52,265 nucleotides of DNA from Synechococcus sp. AG-670-B23 (lineage in GTDB: Bacteria > Cyanobacteriota > Cyanobacteriia > PCC-6307 > Cyanobiaceae), in contig QCSL01000012.1 of assembly GCA_003209165.1 (NCBI GenBank), positions 1-52,265 of the forward strand, written 5' to 3'. The notes beneath the pieces are model-generated. The model saw nothing but the letters and a program-made list of their open reading frames with translations. It made no database searches and was not told the origin of the DNA. Both the position numbers and the translations under genes were made by a program. Position 1 is the first letter of the stretch. Each line of letters starts with the position of its first letter. This document shows, piece by piece, positions 1 through 48,274 of this stretch.

Positions 1-623
1 TTGACGTTTTCTCTGAGTATTTTTGCGGAGCGTGGCGCGGCAGTTTTGCCTTATGTGTGTCTTGTTGCCTGTTTACCTTTAAATATAACTTAGACTTTTC
101 ACTATCTATTAGTTTACCTTATCATCTAATGCTTAATCAACCTACCAACTTCACCAGGCTCAGAGGGCAGAGAGGGTTCATCTACAACCTAGAAACCACA
201 CCAGTAACCGTTACCCATAACTGATATGACCAGCTCATCGCATCCCCTCTACAAAACCTGGCACTTGGCACAACAAGGAACATATATATGTCAATAGTAG
301 CTAGAAACAAAAAATCATATTTATAATATTCTTAAAGGCATTTAGAACCTAGTTTTTAGAGACAACGATAACTAAACGGTTAAAGAAAAGATGAATCATG
401 AAATGCTAGAAAATTGTCAAGAAACATGCATCTGATGGCTAGCCAAATGAGTTTTGAATATGTATAAATATCTTCATCTTGATTATATTCAGGCGGTGAT
501 TTCTTAATATAATTTTGGACATAGGGACTAGAAATCATTCCAATCAGAATTATTTACAGGTATATTTAAACGTGGTTGTCTGTTCAAAGTTATGGCAAAA
601 TTAAATGTAGTTCCGATAGATGA
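1..623. other. AT-rich stretch without a recognisable gene
   Basis: No credible coding region was seen on either strand. The sequence is clearly more AT-rich than the host genes at the right end of the window. It lies downstream of the minus-strand fasciclin gene. No strong repeat or terminator was recognised. Confidence 0.5.
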
Positions 624-1151
624 TCACTTCGGCATCAATACAGTATCAATCACGTGGATTGTGCCATTCGTAGCTTCAATATCTGACTTTATAACTGTGG
701 AGTGGTCAATAAAAACCTTTCCATCTTTTGTTTTGATTGTAATTGACTTACCATTAAGTGTTTCAGCACTAGACAACTTGACGACATCTGCAGCTGTTAC
801 ATTTCCAGCAACTACGTGATACGTAAGGATATCAGTCAATTTCTGTTTGCTTGAAGGCTTTAACAACGATGCAACTGTCCCAACAGGAAGCTTTGCGAAG
901 GCCTCATCTGTTGGCGCAAAAACGGTGAAAGGACCTTCGCCCTTAAGTGCTTCTACTAATCCAGCTGCACCAAGCGCTGCCGCTAGGGTTTCAAAGCTGC
1001 CCGCAGAAACAGCCGTGTCAACTATGTCTTTGGAGGGCATGGTGTGATCCTTATCACCCATGTGACCTCCTGCGAAAGCGCTTGTAGAGGTCAACAGGCT
1101 TAGAGACAATGCGGCAGCACCAAAACGAAGCGTGCGATCGAGAACTGACAT
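624..1151 (-). CDS. Secreted fasciclin (FAS1) domain protein
   Basis: 175 aa. An N-terminal signal peptide (hydrophobic [15 protein letters not shown], residues about 13-27) is followed by one FAS1/beta-Ig-H3 domain. The hallmark blocks are visible: [24 protein letters not shown] and, at the C-terminus, [16 protein letters not shown]1 proteins are small exported or surface adhesion-type proteins common in cyanobacteria; the exact role is not known. It is a single gene facing away from the prophage, with no operon partner. The start was chosen because it gives a complete signal peptide. The family call is secure and the function is not. Confidence 0.9.
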
Positions 1152-1226
1152 TTGCGGGAACCAAAGTTCACCAAACTTAACAAGGCGCTTTGGCGTAGCG
1201 TGGGTCTATCGCACCATTGTCCTTAT

Positions 1227-1442
1227 TTATAAGGGAAGCATTGAAGTGAAGTTCACGCTGACTGCGCCATCCTCAATCTTCAGACATTTCTCAATATTCT
1301 TCAGGATAGTGTCTTTTAAGCCTTCCTTGATTTCCTTTGAAGGATGACGACCAGTCATGCCAGCACTAATGTCGTCAGCGAAATCAGAGGCATCCTTTAT
1401 TACAATGTTGACTTTTGACGAATTCTTGATCTGCTCAGTCAA
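1227..1442 (-). CDS. Small hypothetical protein
   Basis: 71 aa, charged, without signal peptide or membrane segment. It is not recognised. The composition (alternating Lys/Asp/Ile with a central HPSKEIKEGLKD stretch) looks protein-like. It lies just upstream of the fasciclin gene on the same strand with a gap of about 75 bases, so co-transcription is possible. Confidence 0.5.
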   Translation of the reverse strand: MTEQIKNSSKVNIVIKDASDFADDISAGMTGRHPSKEIKEGLKDTILKNIEKCLKIEDGAVSVNFTSMLPL

Positions 1443-1595
1443 GTGACTACAAATAGCTTCTACCTTCTTATTGCGTGACTTTAAATCGTTTGTAGAGTCT
1501 GGAGTAAAAGGGAACGATATTTAAAGATTCCTATTAGATAAATTGGGTTTCTGTTTCGACATTGGATTGATAAGGAGACTCAGAGATATAACCCT

Positions 1596-1796
1596 TCACG
1601 AAGTATTGACGCCTAATTTTTTAAGCTTCTTCTGTCTTTCAAGCTCATGCAGCTCATCGATAGTAAGAACAGGACAGCGATTAAGCTTCAAGCTAACATT
1701 CAATCTATTCAAGTAGGTTGAGATAGACATTGAACTGAAGCAAGGAATAGAAAGGCACGAATCGAACCTAACTCCGCTGTATGCGCAGCGTACCAA
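1596..1796 (-). CDS. Possible small hypothetical protein
   Basis: Up to 66 aa. The C-terminal half (TIDELHELERQKKLKKLG) looks like a genuine charged helix, whereas the N-terminal third does not. An internal ATG at 1730 giving 44 aa is an alternative start. No family was recognised and no clear ribosome binding site was seen. It could be a gene remnant in the AT-rich flank. Confidence 0.3.
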   Translation of the reverse strand: MVRCAYSGVRFDSCLSIPCFSSMSISTYLNRLNVSLKLNRCPVLTIDELHELERQKKLKKLGVNTS

Positions 1797-2022
1797 CAGG
1801 AGTTTTACTGTTGACCATACATCCGAAGAAACATTGGATGTGTTGTGGTAATAACAAGGCTCTTTTCTGGAGTAGTCCAGGCTTTGAGTGCTGCACTGCT
1901 TTTTGATCCTGTATTACGAGTTTGAGTTGAGTTTGAGTAAATGCCTCTTCCTATCTGGCACTTGCTCAACAAGGACAGATCGCGTCAAACCTGCGCGGGA
2001 GCACAAGCGAGGTTGTTATCCG

Positions 2023-2051
2023 TTGTCAGGGGGTCAGCTCGGGCGTATAAT
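2023..2051 (+). promoter_or_regulatory. Sigma-70 type promoter for the DUF4278 gene
   Basis: A -35 box TTGTCA at 2023-2028 and a perfect -10 box TATAAT at 2046-2051 are separated by exactly 17 bases. The start codon at 2151 follows about 100 bases later, leaving a leader with a CCTCGC/GCGAGG hairpin near 2087-2102. The promoter lies inside the longer open frame that begins at 1941, which argues against that upstream start. Confidence 0.75.
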
Positions 2052-2150
2052 CTTTCTGTAGCAACAGCTACTAACAACGTTCACCTCGCTTCTGCGAGGC
2101 GCAGATCACCAGGCCAAGGAACGGGGACCTGGATTTCTGAGGAACCACAA

Positions 2151-2252
2151 ATGACCCTGACCTATCGCGGCCAGAAGTACGACCAGCAAAAGGTGGCTAG
2201 CGCTTCCAACAAGCCTGCTCTGACCTATCGCGGCGTTTCCTACGCCAAGTGA
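2151..2252 (+). CDS. DUF4278-type small protein (two TYRG repeats)
   Basis: 33 aa, with two copies of the motif LTYRGxxY (LTYRGQKY near the N-terminus and LTYRGVSY at the C-terminus). This matches the short DUF4278 domain typical of cyanobacteria, whose function is unknown. A consensus promoter lies about 100 bases upstream, GAGG precedes the ATG by about 8 bases, and a strong terminator follows, so it is a self-contained monocistronic gene. It is the last host gene before the prophage. A phage frame at 34998-35111 ends with the same motif. Confidence 0.75.
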   Translation: MTLTYRGQKYDQQKVASASNKPALTYRGVSYAK

Positions 2253-2269
2253 TCAAGGCTTAATCAGAA

Positions 2270-2287
2270 GATCTCAAGCCCCTGCCT
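2270..2287 (+). repeat. 18-bp direct repeat, host-side copy
   Basis: GATCTCAAGCCCCTGCCT is identical to 2623-2640. This copy forms the 5' arm of the terminator after the DUF4278 gene. Confidence 0.75.
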
Positions 2288-2305
2288 TTGGCGGGGGTTT
2301 CTTTT
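2279..2305 (+). terminator. Rho-independent terminator after the DUF4278 gene
   Basis: CCCC-T-GCC / GGC-G-GGGG stem with a TTT loop, followed by TTTCTTTTT. It sits 26 bases after the stop codon. Confidence 0.85.
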
Positions 2306-2309
2306 TGCC

Positions 2310-2520
2310 TGGAGTCGGCATCCTTGAGGTCATCGAACGTGTGACCAAAGGCGACCGGCCTCAGGACCTAACACTTGAGGAGATAGTGGCCCTCTTCAAA
2401 GACTCACTAAAAGGCACTATTCACTAGTAAGTGAGCATCAATTACTAACCCTTATTGAGAATGGAGTAGTAGATGCCAACAGATACAACCCTTCAGTATT
2501 GATCAGGGTTCTTGATCGTT
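2310..2520 (+). pseudogene. Possible degraded coding remnant
   Basis: Two adjacent open stretches in different frames read like one broken gene. One is acidic and helix-like (contains DLTLEEIVALFKDSLKG, ending in a stop near 2427). The other, in another frame, continues with LTLIENGVVDANRYNPSV. No start codon or family could be assigned. It sits between the DUF4278 terminator and the tRNA. Chance open frames are an equally simple explanation. Confidence 0.2.
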
Positions 2521-2525
2521 TGGTA

Positions 2526-2610
2526 TGCGGATGGGGAGACTTGAACTCCCACGATGTTGCCACCACTAGTACCTGAAACTAGCGCGTCTACCAGATTCCG
2601 CCACATCCGC
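2526..2610 (-). tRNA. tRNA-Leu(CAG), reconstituted at attL
   Basis: 85 nt. The acceptor stem GCGGATG/CATCCGC, discriminator A, D-arm with GGTAGAC, anticodon arm CTAGT-TTCAGGT-ACTAG (anticodon CAG), a class II long variable arm and T-arm TTCAAGT are all present. CCA is not encoded in full (TACCA follows). Bases 2567-2610 belong to the att repeat and are interpreted as phage-supplied, whereas 2526-2566 are host. The D-loop carries one extra base compared with the truncated copy at attR and with tRNA-Leu(CAA) at 49610. Upstream (higher coordinates) is phage DNA carrying int in the same direction, so the native promoter is gone. Confidence 0.93.
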
Positions 2611-2615
2611 TGGCG
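2567..2615. repeat. attL core repeat (tRNA-Leu 5' part)
   Basis: 49 bp matching 48082-48129 except for one inserted base at 2594. The exact blocks are 27 bp (2567-2593) and 21 bp (2595-2615). The core runs from the anticodon stem to five bases upstream of the tRNA 5' end. A tyrosine integrase gene lies 91 bp inside it. Confidence 0.93.
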
Positions 2616-2622
2616 CAACAGG

Positions 2623-2640
2623 GATCTCAAGCCCCTGCCT
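2623..2640 (+). repeat. 18-bp direct repeat, phage-side copy
   Basis: It is identical to 2270-2287, located 7 bases inside the attL core. Here the matching 3' stem arm is absent, so it is only half of the host terminator sequence. Confidence 0.75.
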
Positions 2641-2661
2641 GCCAAGAATATAGCAGTTGAT

Positions 2662-2705
2662 GGTCTCTACCCCCCATTTGGCATAGGGGGTAGACGCGGT
2701 AGACC
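2662..2705. promoter_or_regulatory. Hairpin with tandem GGTAGAC repeats between int and tRNA
   Basis: TCTACCCCC (2666-2674) pairs with GGGGGTAGA (2686-2694), and GGTCT/AGACC form an outer stem. GGTAGAC occurs at 2689-2695 and 2698-2704, and the first copy extends to GGTAGACGCG, the same ten bases as the tRNA D-arm. There is no U-run, so it is not a typical terminator. Possible roles are RNA processing between int and the tRNA, or integrase arm binding. Confidence 0.45.
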
Positions 2706-2706
2706 T

Positions 2707-3750
2707 TCAGGCTGCCCTAAAGATCTGCCCGTTGAGGTAAATCGAGCCGTCAGGAAGAACAACAGGTTCACTTGCCGCTGCCTTGGGAGTGGCATCAACA
2801 GGTGAGGGCAGTGATGCCTGAGCATCCATCGCCGCTTGGTTGTCTACGTCGCAATACTTCATTACGACTTCAAAATCCTTCCAGCCACCAACAGCCATCA
2901 GTTCACGAGGCTTCATCGTGCGGCCATACCAAGTTGCCCCAGTTGATCGCAACGACTTCCAAAGCACCTCGTCACCCAACATGCACTTGCGGCGCACGCG
3001 CTCAAAGCGACGAAGCAAGCGCTCACCATCTGGCACGCCACGGCTATTTAACCAATGCTGACCAAACACTTTTTCGTTCGGGTCATCAGCTTCATTAACC
3101 ATGGTTTGGCAGATCTCACGAATGCGTGAATGGATCACTGTTGTGCGTCCTGCCTCTTTGCCTTTGTTCAACAAACCTCTCCGTGGATCACCGCCAATAC
3201 GGATGTAACCCATTTCGAGATCGATGTCTTTGGCACGCAAGCGAAGCAATTCGCTTTGACGAACCATGGTGTAGGCAGAGAACAAGATGGCCTTTGCCAG
3301 GTATGGCATCTCAAAGAAATCGCTGGCAACACGGGCAAGCTTTTCAACTTGCTCTTGCTTAAGCCAGACAACACTTTGAGGTGTTGGTTTTTCCTTAATT
3401 TTGAGGTCAGGCATGTGAACGCTATGTCCACCAGCTTCACGGGTAAAATTAAGCATGGTTGAGCCTGCTGTTATCACCTTGTTAAGTGTGCAGTTACTCA
3501 TGCCTGGGCGTTTGGTTTTTACATCAGCTTTGAGAGCATTCCACCAATAGCCGTTTGCCATGTTGGAGATCGCTTCATTGCGTCCGCAAAAATTGAGAAC
3601 GTGCATGGAGTTGTAGTAGTTCGTCTTAGCCGAAGCCTTGCCGGACCACTTGTGTTCCATGGTGTAGTCGTACATCTGTCCAACAGTGCGAAGCCGAAGT
3701 TTCTTGGAATCCTCGGCCTCTGCTTTGCGAACAGCTCTGCGTGTGGGCAT
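2707..3750 (-). CDS. int: Phage integrase, tyrosine recombinase
   Basis: 347 aa. Site-specific recombinase expected to join attP to tRNA-Leu. The C-terminal catalytic domain shows Arg I in TMVRQSELLRLR (about residue 163), Arg II in WKSLRSTGATW (about 263), the GGW block (about 288) and the nucleophile Tyr in MKYCDV (about 299). The usual His of the HxxR box is Lys here (KSLR) and the following His is Ser. The N-terminal part fits a core-binding domain. A Pro/Ala-rich tail of about 40 residues follows the Tyr. The gene is 91 bp from the attL core and is transcribed toward the tRNA. Int next to the tRNA-derived att site matches the arrangement reported for cyanophage P-SSP7. Confidence 0.93.
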   Translation of the reverse strand: MPTRRAVRKAEAEDSKKLRLRTVGQMYDYTMEHKWSGKASAKTNYYNSMHVLNFCGRNEAISNMANGYWWNALKADVKTKRPGMSNCTLNKVITAGSTMLNFTREAGGHSVHMPDLKIKEKPTPQSVVWLKQEQVEKLARVASDFFEMPYLAKAILFSAYTMVRQSELLRLRAKDIDLEMGYIRIGGDPRRGLLNKGKEAGRTTVIHSRIREICQTMVNEADDPNEKVFGQHWLNSRGVPDGERLLRRFERVRRKCMLGDEVLWKSLRSTGATWYGRTMKPRELMAVGGWKDFEVVMKYCDVDNQAAMDAQASLPSPVDATPKAAASEPVVLPDGSIYLNGQIFRAA

Positions 3751-3814
3751 GGGTCATGCAGCGGTGTGTACTAGGTGAGTATAACACGGTAGACACCAGT
3801 CTACCAACTGCATT
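3751..3814. promoter_or_regulatory. int upstream region with inverted repeat and GTGTGTA motif
   Basis: GGTAGAC (3788-3794) and GTCTACC (3799-3805) form a perfect 7-bp inverted repeat with a 4-base loop. GTGTGTA lies at 3764-3770, between the repeat and the int start codon. Suggested operator, processing hairpin or integrase arm site; not proven. Confidence 0.4.
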
Positions 3815-3979
3815 TTACCCAGGCTCATCTGTGCAGAAGGTGAGTTCAGGAACTGCACACCTTTCCAACCAATCGCCAAGGGTTGCGAGTGCTGCCCCTT
3901 GGTCGTATTGGTCTGTTGAAACGTAGTGCTGAATGCGTTCAACCATGGTCGCGTTGGGTGCTGGTTTGAGGTCGTCCAT
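3815..3979 (-). CDS. Small hypothetical protein between RNAP and int
   Basis: 54 aa. The start codon overlaps the RNAP stop by one base (TAATG), which indicates translational coupling. The protein is acidic and helical (TMVERIQHYV, GAALATLGDWLERC) with no recognised domain. Its position directly before int makes a recombination-related role such as a directionality factor imaginable, but nothing in the sequence shows it. Confidence 0.7.
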   Translation of the reverse strand: MDDLKPAPNATMVERIQHYVSTDQYDQGAALATLGDWLERCAVPELTFCTDEPG

Positions 3980-6306
3980 TAGCAAAAGAAGTAATCGGAT
4001 TCATTCACCAGTTCAATGTCCAAGGTGTTCTTAATTAGGTCGTCAGGTACTTCTACCCCCACCTGATTGGCCCAGTCTTGGAGCACTGGGTGCTTGTACA
4101 TTTCGGCAAAGTGGAGCCTGATCTGTTCAGACATTTCACGCATGTCGCATGAGCGTCCAAGGGTGCAATCATGTATGCACATAAATGGCTTGTCCCAGTA
4201 CGCAAAGGTGTGGTGAATTAAGGCTGCGTCTGCGGCGTGAACCACGTTCGGCGCAAGCGCATTTTTGTGATGTGCCTTGTCAACTTCGGCATCGCCAAGC
4301 TCATGGTCATTTACAAAACAGAAGACTGTTGAGCCCATGAGACGTGTCTTGACTCGCTTTCCTTTTGGCTTGCGGAGGTCTTGTACAACCTCGAAGCCTG
4401 ATGGCGATGTCCAGCAAATGACATCCTGTGTTTCAAGGATTTTTAAAGCTGCGCTTTGCAGCCAGCTCATTGCATTCACTGGGCCAGGAAAGATAGCCGG
4501 AATGGCTTCGTCATAGATGGCATACACAATGTCCGATAGAACGCCAGGCTGAGATAGATCCCTGCCTTGCTCAACCAACTCCCTACGGATGTAGGCACGC
4601 GACGTATTGCGTGAGACTCCATATGGAACTGTCATGCAGGTGCGCTTTGTCACCTTGCGATTCATCCAGGAATCGTGTGGCTCGTCCAGCAAGTTGGCCG
4701 CATATTCAGCAACTGTTTTGTAGCCGTCCATCGGCTTGTCGCCAGGCGTGAGATTCACGAGGCTTCCGGTGCCGTCCAGCGTCATAGCACTGAGGTGCTG
4801 AATGCCGGACTGGGTTGCATCGATGCCCACTGGCAAACCAGAGGTCCATTTGGTTTTCCAGATGCAGCACTTTGCAAACTCGCAGCAGCTCGCCATAAAG
4901 ACCCATGGCTCAGCAGCAACCTCCCACTCGGGAATGGTCCCGATCGGATCGCGTGCAATCCGTTCAATCAGGGAAAAGTTGTCGTATGTCCAATCAATGC
5001 GATCGTCCATTGACATCTTGTCGTTGCCGTATGCGTTGCTGACGTTGAACGCCAGGTAGTACGAATCAACGACACCCTCCTCTGAGAAGTACAGAAGACT
5101 TCGGTCGAAGTCTGTGCCTTGTGGATTGAGAGCGGTGTTGTTGTAGTAGATGCGACCACGGTAGTCCGCAGAAACCACGCAGTAAAACGCGGGTTCATCG
5201 GCATACTTGTTAGCCACATACATCACCTCAGAGGTGCGCCAATTCTTTTGTGCGAGCTGTGCGTTGTGATCCTCAATCTTGCGACGCGCACGCTTGTACT
5301 CCTTTAGTTGTTCTTCTGTTGGGTGCTCACCTGGCGATGCAGGTGGGTCAATGAATTTGTCACAGCAGAATTTACCAATGGAGATTTGGTGCTCTTTGCA
5401 ATGGTTCGCCACCTCCAACACATCACGGTTAATCCGAAGAGCAACGCTCATTAGATTGTTCATCATGCGTAAGGGCAGCTCTCCCTGCTTACATGTACGC
5501 AATGAATGCGACTTGCGAATCACAGGTTGAGACTGCCTAACAATTTCAGTGAGATACCCACCCGGCTCCTCATTGCTATGTGCAATCGGAGGGCACAGCA
5601 TCGGCCACTGACAGAAGGCAACACGCTCAGCCTGGGCAATGATCGTGTCGCGTGCTTGGAGAAACTCAGTGCTGTATTTGATGACAGAGATTTTGCGTAG
5701 CTTGCTGACCTGCTTTGATTCAACAGTCATCCACCCTGTTGATCTCATAAAACAGTCGAGAAGCCAGGCCCCAACACGGTGATGGACTGTTCGACTCCAC
5801 GTCGGCCACTCAATTCCTGCCTTGTTAAACGCACGCTTGAGCACTGTGTTCTTCTGTCTTGTGCCTGTCGAAGGGTGGAAGTAGCGCTCTGTGTCCTTGT
5901 ACAAATCCTTGTTCTCAGACCAGTACCAATCAAGACGCAGTTGATTGTGTACCGATTGAGACATTGGAACCGACACATCCAACAGTTGTGGATGGGATTC
6001 CTTACCAAGGACATCCAACGCTGTCTTTGCTACCAGCAGATACACAACGGCTGCATCTGCTTCTTTGAGCTTTGCGTACACCAACTCTGCATCGACAGCA
6101 GCCTGCCCTTTCCGCAATAGGTGCAGTCTCTCTTCATACAAAACAACAAATGCTGAGGCACTCGCCTTGATCATCACCTGCCCATCGATTGTTGATGATG
6201 CGTATGACTTCTGCTTTGCCTGCAGTGTCTTTCTCCTCAGCGTCTCAATGGCCTCTGTACTGGCCTCCTGTTCGCGTTTGAGCTGGCGTGCAACGTTGTC
6301 AAGCAT
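3979..6306 (-). CDS. T7-type single-subunit DNA-directed RNA polymerase (gp1)
   Basis: 775 aa from ATG 6306. Expected to transcribe the phage middle and late genes from phage-specific promoters. Palm motif A, GIDATQSGIQHL (catalytic Asp about residue 494), motif B, KVTKRTCMTVPYG (about 550), and motif C, MCIHDC (Asp about 711), are all intact, so the enzyme should be active. The length is slightly below T7 RNAP (883 aa), as expected for cyanopodoviruses. An upstream in-frame start at 6423 was rejected because a strong terminator (6320-6343) lies between it and 6306 and the extra residues are unlike RNAP. It is followed by a coupled 54-aa gene and int. Confidence 0.97.
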   Translation of the reverse strand: MLDNVARQLKREQEASTEAIETLRRKTLQAKQKSYASSTIDGQVMIKASASAFVVLYEERLHLLRKGQAAVDAELVYAKLKEADAAVVYLLVAKTALDVLGKESHPQLLDVSVPMSQSVHNQLRLDWYWSENKDLYKDTERYFHPSTGTRQKNTVLKRAFNKAGIEWPTWSRTVHHRVGAWLLDCFMRSTGWMTVESKQVSKLRKISVIKYSTEFLQARDTIIAQAERVAFCQWPMLCPPIAHSNEEPGGYLTEIVRQSQPVIRKSHSLRTCKQGELPLRMMNNLMSVALRINRDVLEVANHCKEHQISIGKFCCDKFIDPPASPGEHPTEEQLKEYKRARRKIEDHNAQLAQKNWRTSEVMYVANKYADEPAFYCVVSADYRGRIYYNNTALNPQGTDFDRSLLYFSEEGVVDSYYLAFNVSNAYGNDKMSMDDRIDWTYDNFSLIERIARDPIGTIPEWEVAAEPWVFMASCCEFAKCCIWKTKWTSGLPVGIDATQSGIQHLSAMTLDGTGSLVNLTPGDKPMDGYKTVAEYAANLLDEPHDSWMNRKVTKRTCMTVPYGVSRNTSRAYIRRELVEQGRDLSQPGVLSDIVYAIYDEAIPAIFPGPVNAMSWLQSAALKILETQDVICWTSPSGFEVVQDLRKPKGKRVKTRLMGSTVFCFVNDHELGDAEVDKAHHKNALAPNVVHAADAALIHHTFAYWDKPFMCIHDCTLGRSCDMREMSEQIRLHFAEMYKHPVLQDWANQVGVEVPDDLIKNTLDIELVNESDYFFC

Positions 6307-6319
6307 CAGTAATAGGTAC

Positions 6320-6343
6320 AAAAAAGCCCCCCTTGCGGAGGGC
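6320..6343 (-). terminator. Rho-independent terminator immediately upstream of RNAP
   Basis: On the minus strand, GCCC-T-CC / GG-G-GGGC with loop GCAA is followed by six T. It ends 14 bases before the RNAP start codon, so early transcripts must read through it or a promoter must lie within or just after it. Confidence 0.8.
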
Positions 6344-6364
6344 ATAATCACGAGGGTGCTAACT

Positions 6365-6395
6365 TTGTGTATGAGGTGTGTTCCTACATACACAA
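6365..6395. promoter_or_regulatory. 9-bp inverted repeat upstream of RNAP
   Basis: TTGTGTATG (6365-6373) and CATACACAA (6387-6395) are perfect inverted repeats around a 13-base spacer containing GGTGTGT. The spacing resembles an operator for a dimeric DNA-binding protein. It lies between the last early gene (6470-6658) and the RNAP terminator. Confidence 0.5.
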
Positions 6396-6469
6396 GAAAA
6401 GAACATCGAGCCAAAGAATGCATGACAATGCAATAAGCAGAGCCAATGGTGGTAGGTATGAACTGATGG

Positions 6470-47981: not shown

Positions 47982-48081
47982 GAGTGGACGGTAGATTCCG
48001 TAGAGAGTAAAAGGTGTGTACCCAACCCAGTGATGCCAATAAAAAAAGGGGCTTGTGGCCCCCTAGGTGTGTATCTTTACA
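47982..48081. promoter_or_regulatory. Region inside attR with two GTGTGTA motifs
   Basis: GTGTGTA on the + strand at 48014-48020 and 48067-48073 flanks the terminator. The segment between terminator and first gene (47982-48040) should hold the promoter of the replication operon; on the minus strand it reads TTGGGTACACACC, with no clear bacterial -10/-35 pair. Confidence 0.45.
48041..48062 (-). terminator. Rho-independent terminator just inside attR
   Basis: GGGGC/GCCCC with a 5-base loop, followed on the minus strand by seven T. It would stop leftward transcripts entering from the host tRNA promoter before they reach the replication operon. Confidence 0.82.
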
Positions 48082-48129
48082 TAGTACCTGAAACTAGCGC
48101 GTCTACCAATTCCGCCACATCCGCTGGCG
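48082..48129. repeat. attR core repeat and truncated tRNA-Leu
   Basis: 48 bp matching 2567-2615 minus one base. Read on the minus strand it is the first 40-odd bases of a tRNA-Leu, through the anticodon, and then phage DNA. It has the ordinary D-loop AATTGGTAGAC. The 3' half is absent, so it cannot make a tRNA. Confidence 0.93.
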
Positions 48130-48274
48130 TGTCGAGTTTCGACCGGAAGAACATAGGGCATCACCGATCCCTGGCTGCCACAGCTCAATAACAAACTATC
48201 CAGTTTGAACGCCGGCCGTCTAGACGGTCTCAAAGACTGTTGGCAAAATCCAGACTTAGGGGATCAGCTCATCG
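48130..48274. other. Host gap between attR and murA
   Basis: No gene was seen. It should contain the native tRNA-Leu(CAG) promoter (minus strand) and the murA leader. CCGTCTAGACGG at 48216-48227 is a perfect 12-bp palindrome, possibly an operator or hairpin. Confidence 0.4.

Follow-up and report, generated by a model that had tools for sequence, protein, structure and literature searches.

A T7-like cyanophage prophage in Synechococcus probably replaces the control region of tRNA-Leu(CAG) with its own

The prophage described here probably exchanges the control region of the host tRNA-Leu(CAG) gene for one of its own, instead of leaving the tRNA to read-through from the phage integrase gene (int). 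In the favored reading, the tyrosine integrase of a T7-like cyanophage of the P-SSP7/S-TIP37 kind inserted the phage genome into the 5′ half of tRNA-Leu(CAG), and the sequence shows the cut to fall between the 5′ half and a terminator. This suggests how a cell survives a phage that parts a promoter from a single-copy tRNA gene: a replacement comes with the phage.

The window (52,265 nt) is the entire contig C12 of a 2.27-Mb draft genome (100 contigs, 87.7% complete) and holds a complete T7-like cyanophage prophage (2567–48129) inserted in tRNA-Leu(CAG), with the phage genome between the two att cores on the minus strand. Genes identified between the cores by PHROG matches include those for RNA polymerase (RNAP), primase-helicase, DNA polymerase, exonuclease, ssDNA-binding protein, and RNR subunits, as well as portal, scaffold, capsid, tail, and terminase genes. 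The element has the features of the P-SSP7/S-TIP37 kind, with a T7-like RNAP gene (3979–6423, minus strand; PHROG 414, E = 2e-191) alongside T7-type replication and virion genes (PHROG matches), and a gene for a tyrosine integrase of 347 aa (2707–3750, minus strand; PHROG 1, E = 5.9e-28) directly downstream of which lies an attP that matches tRNA-Leu over its first half. Host genes beyond attR include murA, argD, and folC, identified by reading translations. The existence of the prophage is already catalogued, as the element is listed in IMG/VR (IMGVR_UViG_2716884610_000003). No close relatives of the integrase occurred in the family sample, in which other genomes gave distant matches only (26–30% identity). 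Capsid matches among the genome contigs were to two contigs, in one bin labelled Gammaproteobacteria, and were judged to be misbinned phage. The draft genome (G000) has fourteen integrase-like matches on many contigs (Pfam PF00589, likely including cellular recombinases) and may be rich in mobile elements.

The two cores comprise the 5′ half of the tRNA through the anticodon loop and five nucleotides of leader (CGCCA), and their sole difference is one C in the D-loop, with AATCTGG at attL and AATTGG at attR. The attL core (2567–2615, minus strand) is the phage version with the extra C, a 98% match to the attR core (48082–48129, minus strand), as aligned with the attP of relatives and the attB of a relative of the host. 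The attR core, without the extra C, is identical to the attB of host relatives and represents the stranded native 5′ half, with the native promoter left beside it. The extra C was found in seven phage loci, including the attP of the two nearest phages (L081 and L086), and was absent from the attB of host relatives; it was also rejected as a host allele, as none of the 399 other genomes in the family sample carries it. Present in phage attP and absent from these hosts, the extra C indicates that the tRNA of the lysogen has a phage 5′ half. This 5′ half (2567–2610), preceded by the phage promoter, is joined at attL to the chromosomal 3′ half (2526–2566), which gives a whole tRNA with one additional D-loop base, predicted to be functional in the lysogen (2526–2610, minus strand); the hybrid is still called by ARAGORN and folds as a cloverleaf. 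To judge from the position of the differing base, strand exchange took place within the ~27 nt after it, around the anticodon loop. The sequence-only reading had proposed that the phage supplies the 5′ part of the tRNA, which the phage-only D-loop base bears out, and the comparison of the cores with the attB of host relatives agrees with its view that the native promoter is stranded at attR. The intact tRNA does lie downstream of int on the same strand, as that reading had noted, with the two genes 97 nt apart. The prophage contains no further tRNA gene (ARAGORN) and differs from cases of tRNA-dependent lysogeny, in which the core is short, the tRNA is destroyed, and the phage has a separate tRNA gene of the same type, in that its core of ~48 nt restores the tRNA at attL. 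The other contigs of the 87.7%-complete draft showed no empty attB and no free-phage attP, which, with the two junctions assembled, suggests a stable, settled prophage, though as a snapshot and not as proof.

Upstream of the rebuilt tRNA lies an extended −10 element, TGCTATATT (2647–2655, minus strand), a candidate tRNA promoter 36 nt ahead of the gene with a probable start near 2640; the two nearest phages carry TGCTATGTT instead. Among 132 phage loci matching the half-tRNA, 126 lack the 3′ half behind it, and nearly all of the latter have int upstream on the same strand. After the removal of regions >80% alike, 64 attP regions were retained, and the interval 20–80 nt upstream of the half-tRNA was tested for the pattern TGnTAnnnT, which occurred in 44 of the 64 compared to a mean of 1.8 in dinucleotide shuffles (maximum, 6; n = 200). 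As controls, random windows drawn from these loci gave 1.1, and neither the opposite strand nor the 60 nt after the core gave any. TGnTAnnnT ranked first among 1024 gapped patterns of that shape (44 regions vs 25 for the runner-up), was present in loci nearest to six reference integrases, and fell into groups by distance to the half-tRNA (31–36, 53–57, and 73–75 nt). Approximately one-third of the non-redundant phages, mostly those nearest to the S-SRP01 and S-TIP37 integrases, lack the pattern in the tested interval, and some of these have other −10-like hexamers. The TGCTATATT site has no clear −35 and was not listed by a simple sigma-70 scan; a missing −35 is common for extended −10 promoters. 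Based on this conservation, the phage promoter at attL most likely drives the rebuilt tRNA with host RNA polymerase, and as the same switch occurs in dozens of related viruses, expression of the tRNA probably continues independently of the other phage genes. For comparison, the native promoter at attR has a −10-like hexamer (TATGTT; 48150–48155, minus strand) 25 nt before the stranded 5′ half, and this hexamer or a close variant is there in most host relatives. A search for a Syn5-type phage RNAP promoter (ATTGGGCACCCGTAA) returned one site with three mismatches, as by chance, that is not near the tRNA.

The leader of the rebuilt tRNA contains a stem-loop (2616–2639, minus strand) in an RNA fold of leader plus tRNA, and stems also occur in other phage leaders (mean z ~ −2). 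Although stems are common, covariation in a leader stem was rejected as a rule for the whole group, because the segment adjoining the tRNA (ATCGCTGGAATCC) keeps its sequence even where no partner pairs with it.

The main alternative is that most of the tRNA comes from read-through transcripts, begun either at the int promoter (near 3778–3807) or by phage RNAP, with RNase P cutting the tRNA out. The proximity of int, upstream and on the same strand, the existence of a candidate int promoter, and the displacement upon integration of the conserved terminator at which int transcripts of the free phage would stop are all consistent with this, and a similar scheme has been described for archaeal pTN3-like elements. 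It is nonetheless unlikely, as the stretch from int to the half-tRNA has a conserved, strand-specific extended −10, a strong hairpin lies behind int (2667–2693), and integrase is usually silent in a lysogen. The sequence-only reading had expected the tRNA to depend on int or RNAP read-through unless a dedicated promoter lay directly upstream; TGCTATATT is, at the level of sequence, such a promoter, and the dependence is not favored. Transcripts of int may still add to the supply driven by the phage promoter. It is considerably less probable that the conserved motif forms part of a site for integrase or an accessory protein. The motif is located in attP and is surrounded by GTCTACC repeats that resemble arm sites, but its fixed positions (TG, then T, A, and the last T) and variable middle follow the pattern of a −10, it occurs on one strand, groups of phages have it at different distances from the core, and the terminator completes a transcription unit. 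Least credible of all is that the junctions are artefacts of assembly or amplification joining host and phage DNA through their shared core in a draft of 100 contigs, as the differing D-loop base reduces the longest exact stretch common to the junctions to ~27 nt, both junctions sit at the expected point of integrase action, the assembly contains no empty attB and no free attP, and integration of such phages at the same tRNA has been shown by PCR (PMC8776855).

Several other signals occur around int. The hairpin just after the gene (CTACCCCC/GGGGGGTAG; minus strand), read from the sequence, is without a T-run and may limit read-through from int or hold integrase arm sites. The candidate int promoter, found by a promoter scan (TTGGTA-18-TATACT; 3778–3807, minus strand), has a GGTAGAC/GTCTACC palindrome in its spacer and is weak evidence alone, because the count of promoter-like sites in the scanned region was not above that of shuffles. 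GTCTACC occurs nine times in the window compared to 3.4 expected, six of them in the cores, after int (2689–2704), and in the int promoter (3788–3805), a placement that suggests integrase sites and self-control of int.

On the other side of the half-tRNA in attP, a terminator-like hairpin with a T-run was found in 53 of 63 phages (3.9 in shuffles), beginning 25–46 nt after the core. In the window this is an intrinsic terminator read from the sequence (GGGG-CCACAAG-CCCC-T7; 48041–48063, minus strand), which now stands behind the native promoter and 5′ half stranded at attR. There, the native promoter retains the native 5′ half alone and, given this position, would run into the phage terminator, which would cap it. 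With promoter-like and terminator-like elements flanking the half-tRNA, the phages appear to carry a cassette of promoter, tRNA 5′ half, and terminator. The cassette is kept both where RNAP precedes int (S-CBP42, S-TIP28, and the present phage) and where RNAP follows attP (S-CBP2, S-CBP1, S-TIP37, and S-SRP01), indicating that the promoter is not simply the RNAP promoter. A role for the cassette in the free phage, in which it would yield a short RNA (~110–155 nt) containing the tRNA-Leu 5′ half with its own function during infection, while the same promoter makes the whole tRNA in the prophage, is speculative and rather unlikely. In three loci (L157, L167, and L176), the half-tRNA is followed by GGAGTTCGAATCCC, which resembles a tRNA T-arm.

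The use of a tRNA 5′ half is not new for T7-like cyanophages. P-SSP7, S-TIP37, and others have, like the present phage, an integrase with an attP behind it that corresponds to the first half of tRNA-Leu, and their integration into tRNA-Leu was demonstrated by PCR (PMC8776855). The paper reports integration as transient, without stable lysogens, and a survey that found no intact prophages of this group in isolates or in hundreds of single-cell genomes, whereas here a whole prophage is present with both junctions assembled (PMC8776855). The Synechococcus genome studied here has what appears to be an entire T7-like prophage, a state that the published survey called absent (PMC8776855), and this makes lysogeny of these ocean phages testable. 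A discussion of tRNA transcription in the integrants was not found in the passages of PMC8776855 consulted, and no report of a conserved separate promoter in T7-like cyanophages was found in the open-access literature. The conserved promoter-like element suggests selection on the integrated state in phages usually called lytic. More broadly, the usual tRNA-integrating phages, which carry a tRNA 3′ half, also rebuild an intact tRNA at one junction but leave it its native promoter, which the present phage does not. Rebuilt tRNAs normally keep their own promoter and exceptions are rare (PMC8371274), in line with the earlier view of the 5′-half arrangement as unusual among tRNA-integrating elements. 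Archaeal pTN3-like elements also use the tRNA 5′ half, such that the rebuilt tRNA loses its own promoter, and the integrase promoter is said to take over expression of the tRNA (PMC8371274). The present prophage shares the 5′-half attB of these elements but differs in having a separate, conserved promoter-like element (TGCTATATT) after int. Actinobacteriophages of the Fionnbharth type likewise supply a function that keeps an important host tRNA, with a phage-borne promoter, but in their case the tRNA is broken and a complete phage-borne gene takes its place, while the present phage rebuilds the tRNA from a half (PMC10865867).

CUG is the main leucine codon in six host genes (0.42 of 235 leucine codons), as the sequence-only reading had anticipated for this host. 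The draft contains five leucine tRNAs (CAG, UAG, GAG, UAA, and CAA), and the search for a second intact tRNA-Leu(CAG), on which that reading partly turned, found none in the 87.7%-complete draft. A different leucine tRNA able to read CUG, also raised there, is present: tRNA-Leu(UAG), on contig C17, is of a type that commonly reads CUG too, and loss of the CAG tRNA might therefore be costly and not lethal. The suggestion that translation of CUG is tied to phage transcription stands in part, with the tRNA tied to phage DNA but, given the conservation of TGCTATATT, probably not to phage gene expression.

The chromosomal side of attL may itself derive from a mobile element. When the host sequence bordering attR was fused to the flank of contig C79, the resulting 106-nt query was unbroken and 100% identical in seven relatives, representing the undisturbed site, and nearly identical in most other genomes of the genus, which places the native downstream side on C79. 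This contig carries a 3′ half of the tRNA followed by a gene for an 82-aa protein, a SpoU methylase gene, lpdA, and trpC (the last two by reading translations). The present 3′ half (2526–2566) is probably not in its native place and apparently of mobile-element origin, because a different 3′ half, on C79, is the one that adjoins the native downstream genes. The AT-rich flank in the window (1–2525, no strand assigned), with fasciclin and DUF4278 genes, would be the end of an older island and the source of this 3′ half. In G005, a complete relative, the same kind of island occurs alone in the same layout, in which ~3 kb of small genes follow the tRNA and are themselves followed by a decayed 3′ half and then the same 82-aa gene. 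The simplest reading would be two insertions, in which an older island brought a 3′ half that displaced the native one and the phage then brought the 5′ half; the link between C12 and C79 in the draft is likewise one that we infer. If there were two insertions, the functional tRNA is built wholly from mobile-element DNA.

Several minor observations concern the same sites. On C79, the second 3′ half of tRNA-Leu(CAG) joined to native downstream genes lies within locus L036 (1–139), in which positions 1–82 are DNA of another kind that contains a long inverted repeat and probably marks the end of the older island. The G005 island is located at 942–4120 of locus L225, and its small genes encode probably secreted proteins. 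In genome G020 (L227, ~1168–1206), a fragment resembling the tRNA-Leu 5′ half (92% over 39 nt), at which no tRNA gene was called, may be left over from an old integration; G031:C62:8-46 has a similar one. Lastly, an 18-nt identical stretch, gatctcaagcccctgcct, noted by eye, is shared by the AT-rich flank (2269–2288) and the phage leader of the tRNA (2622–2641).
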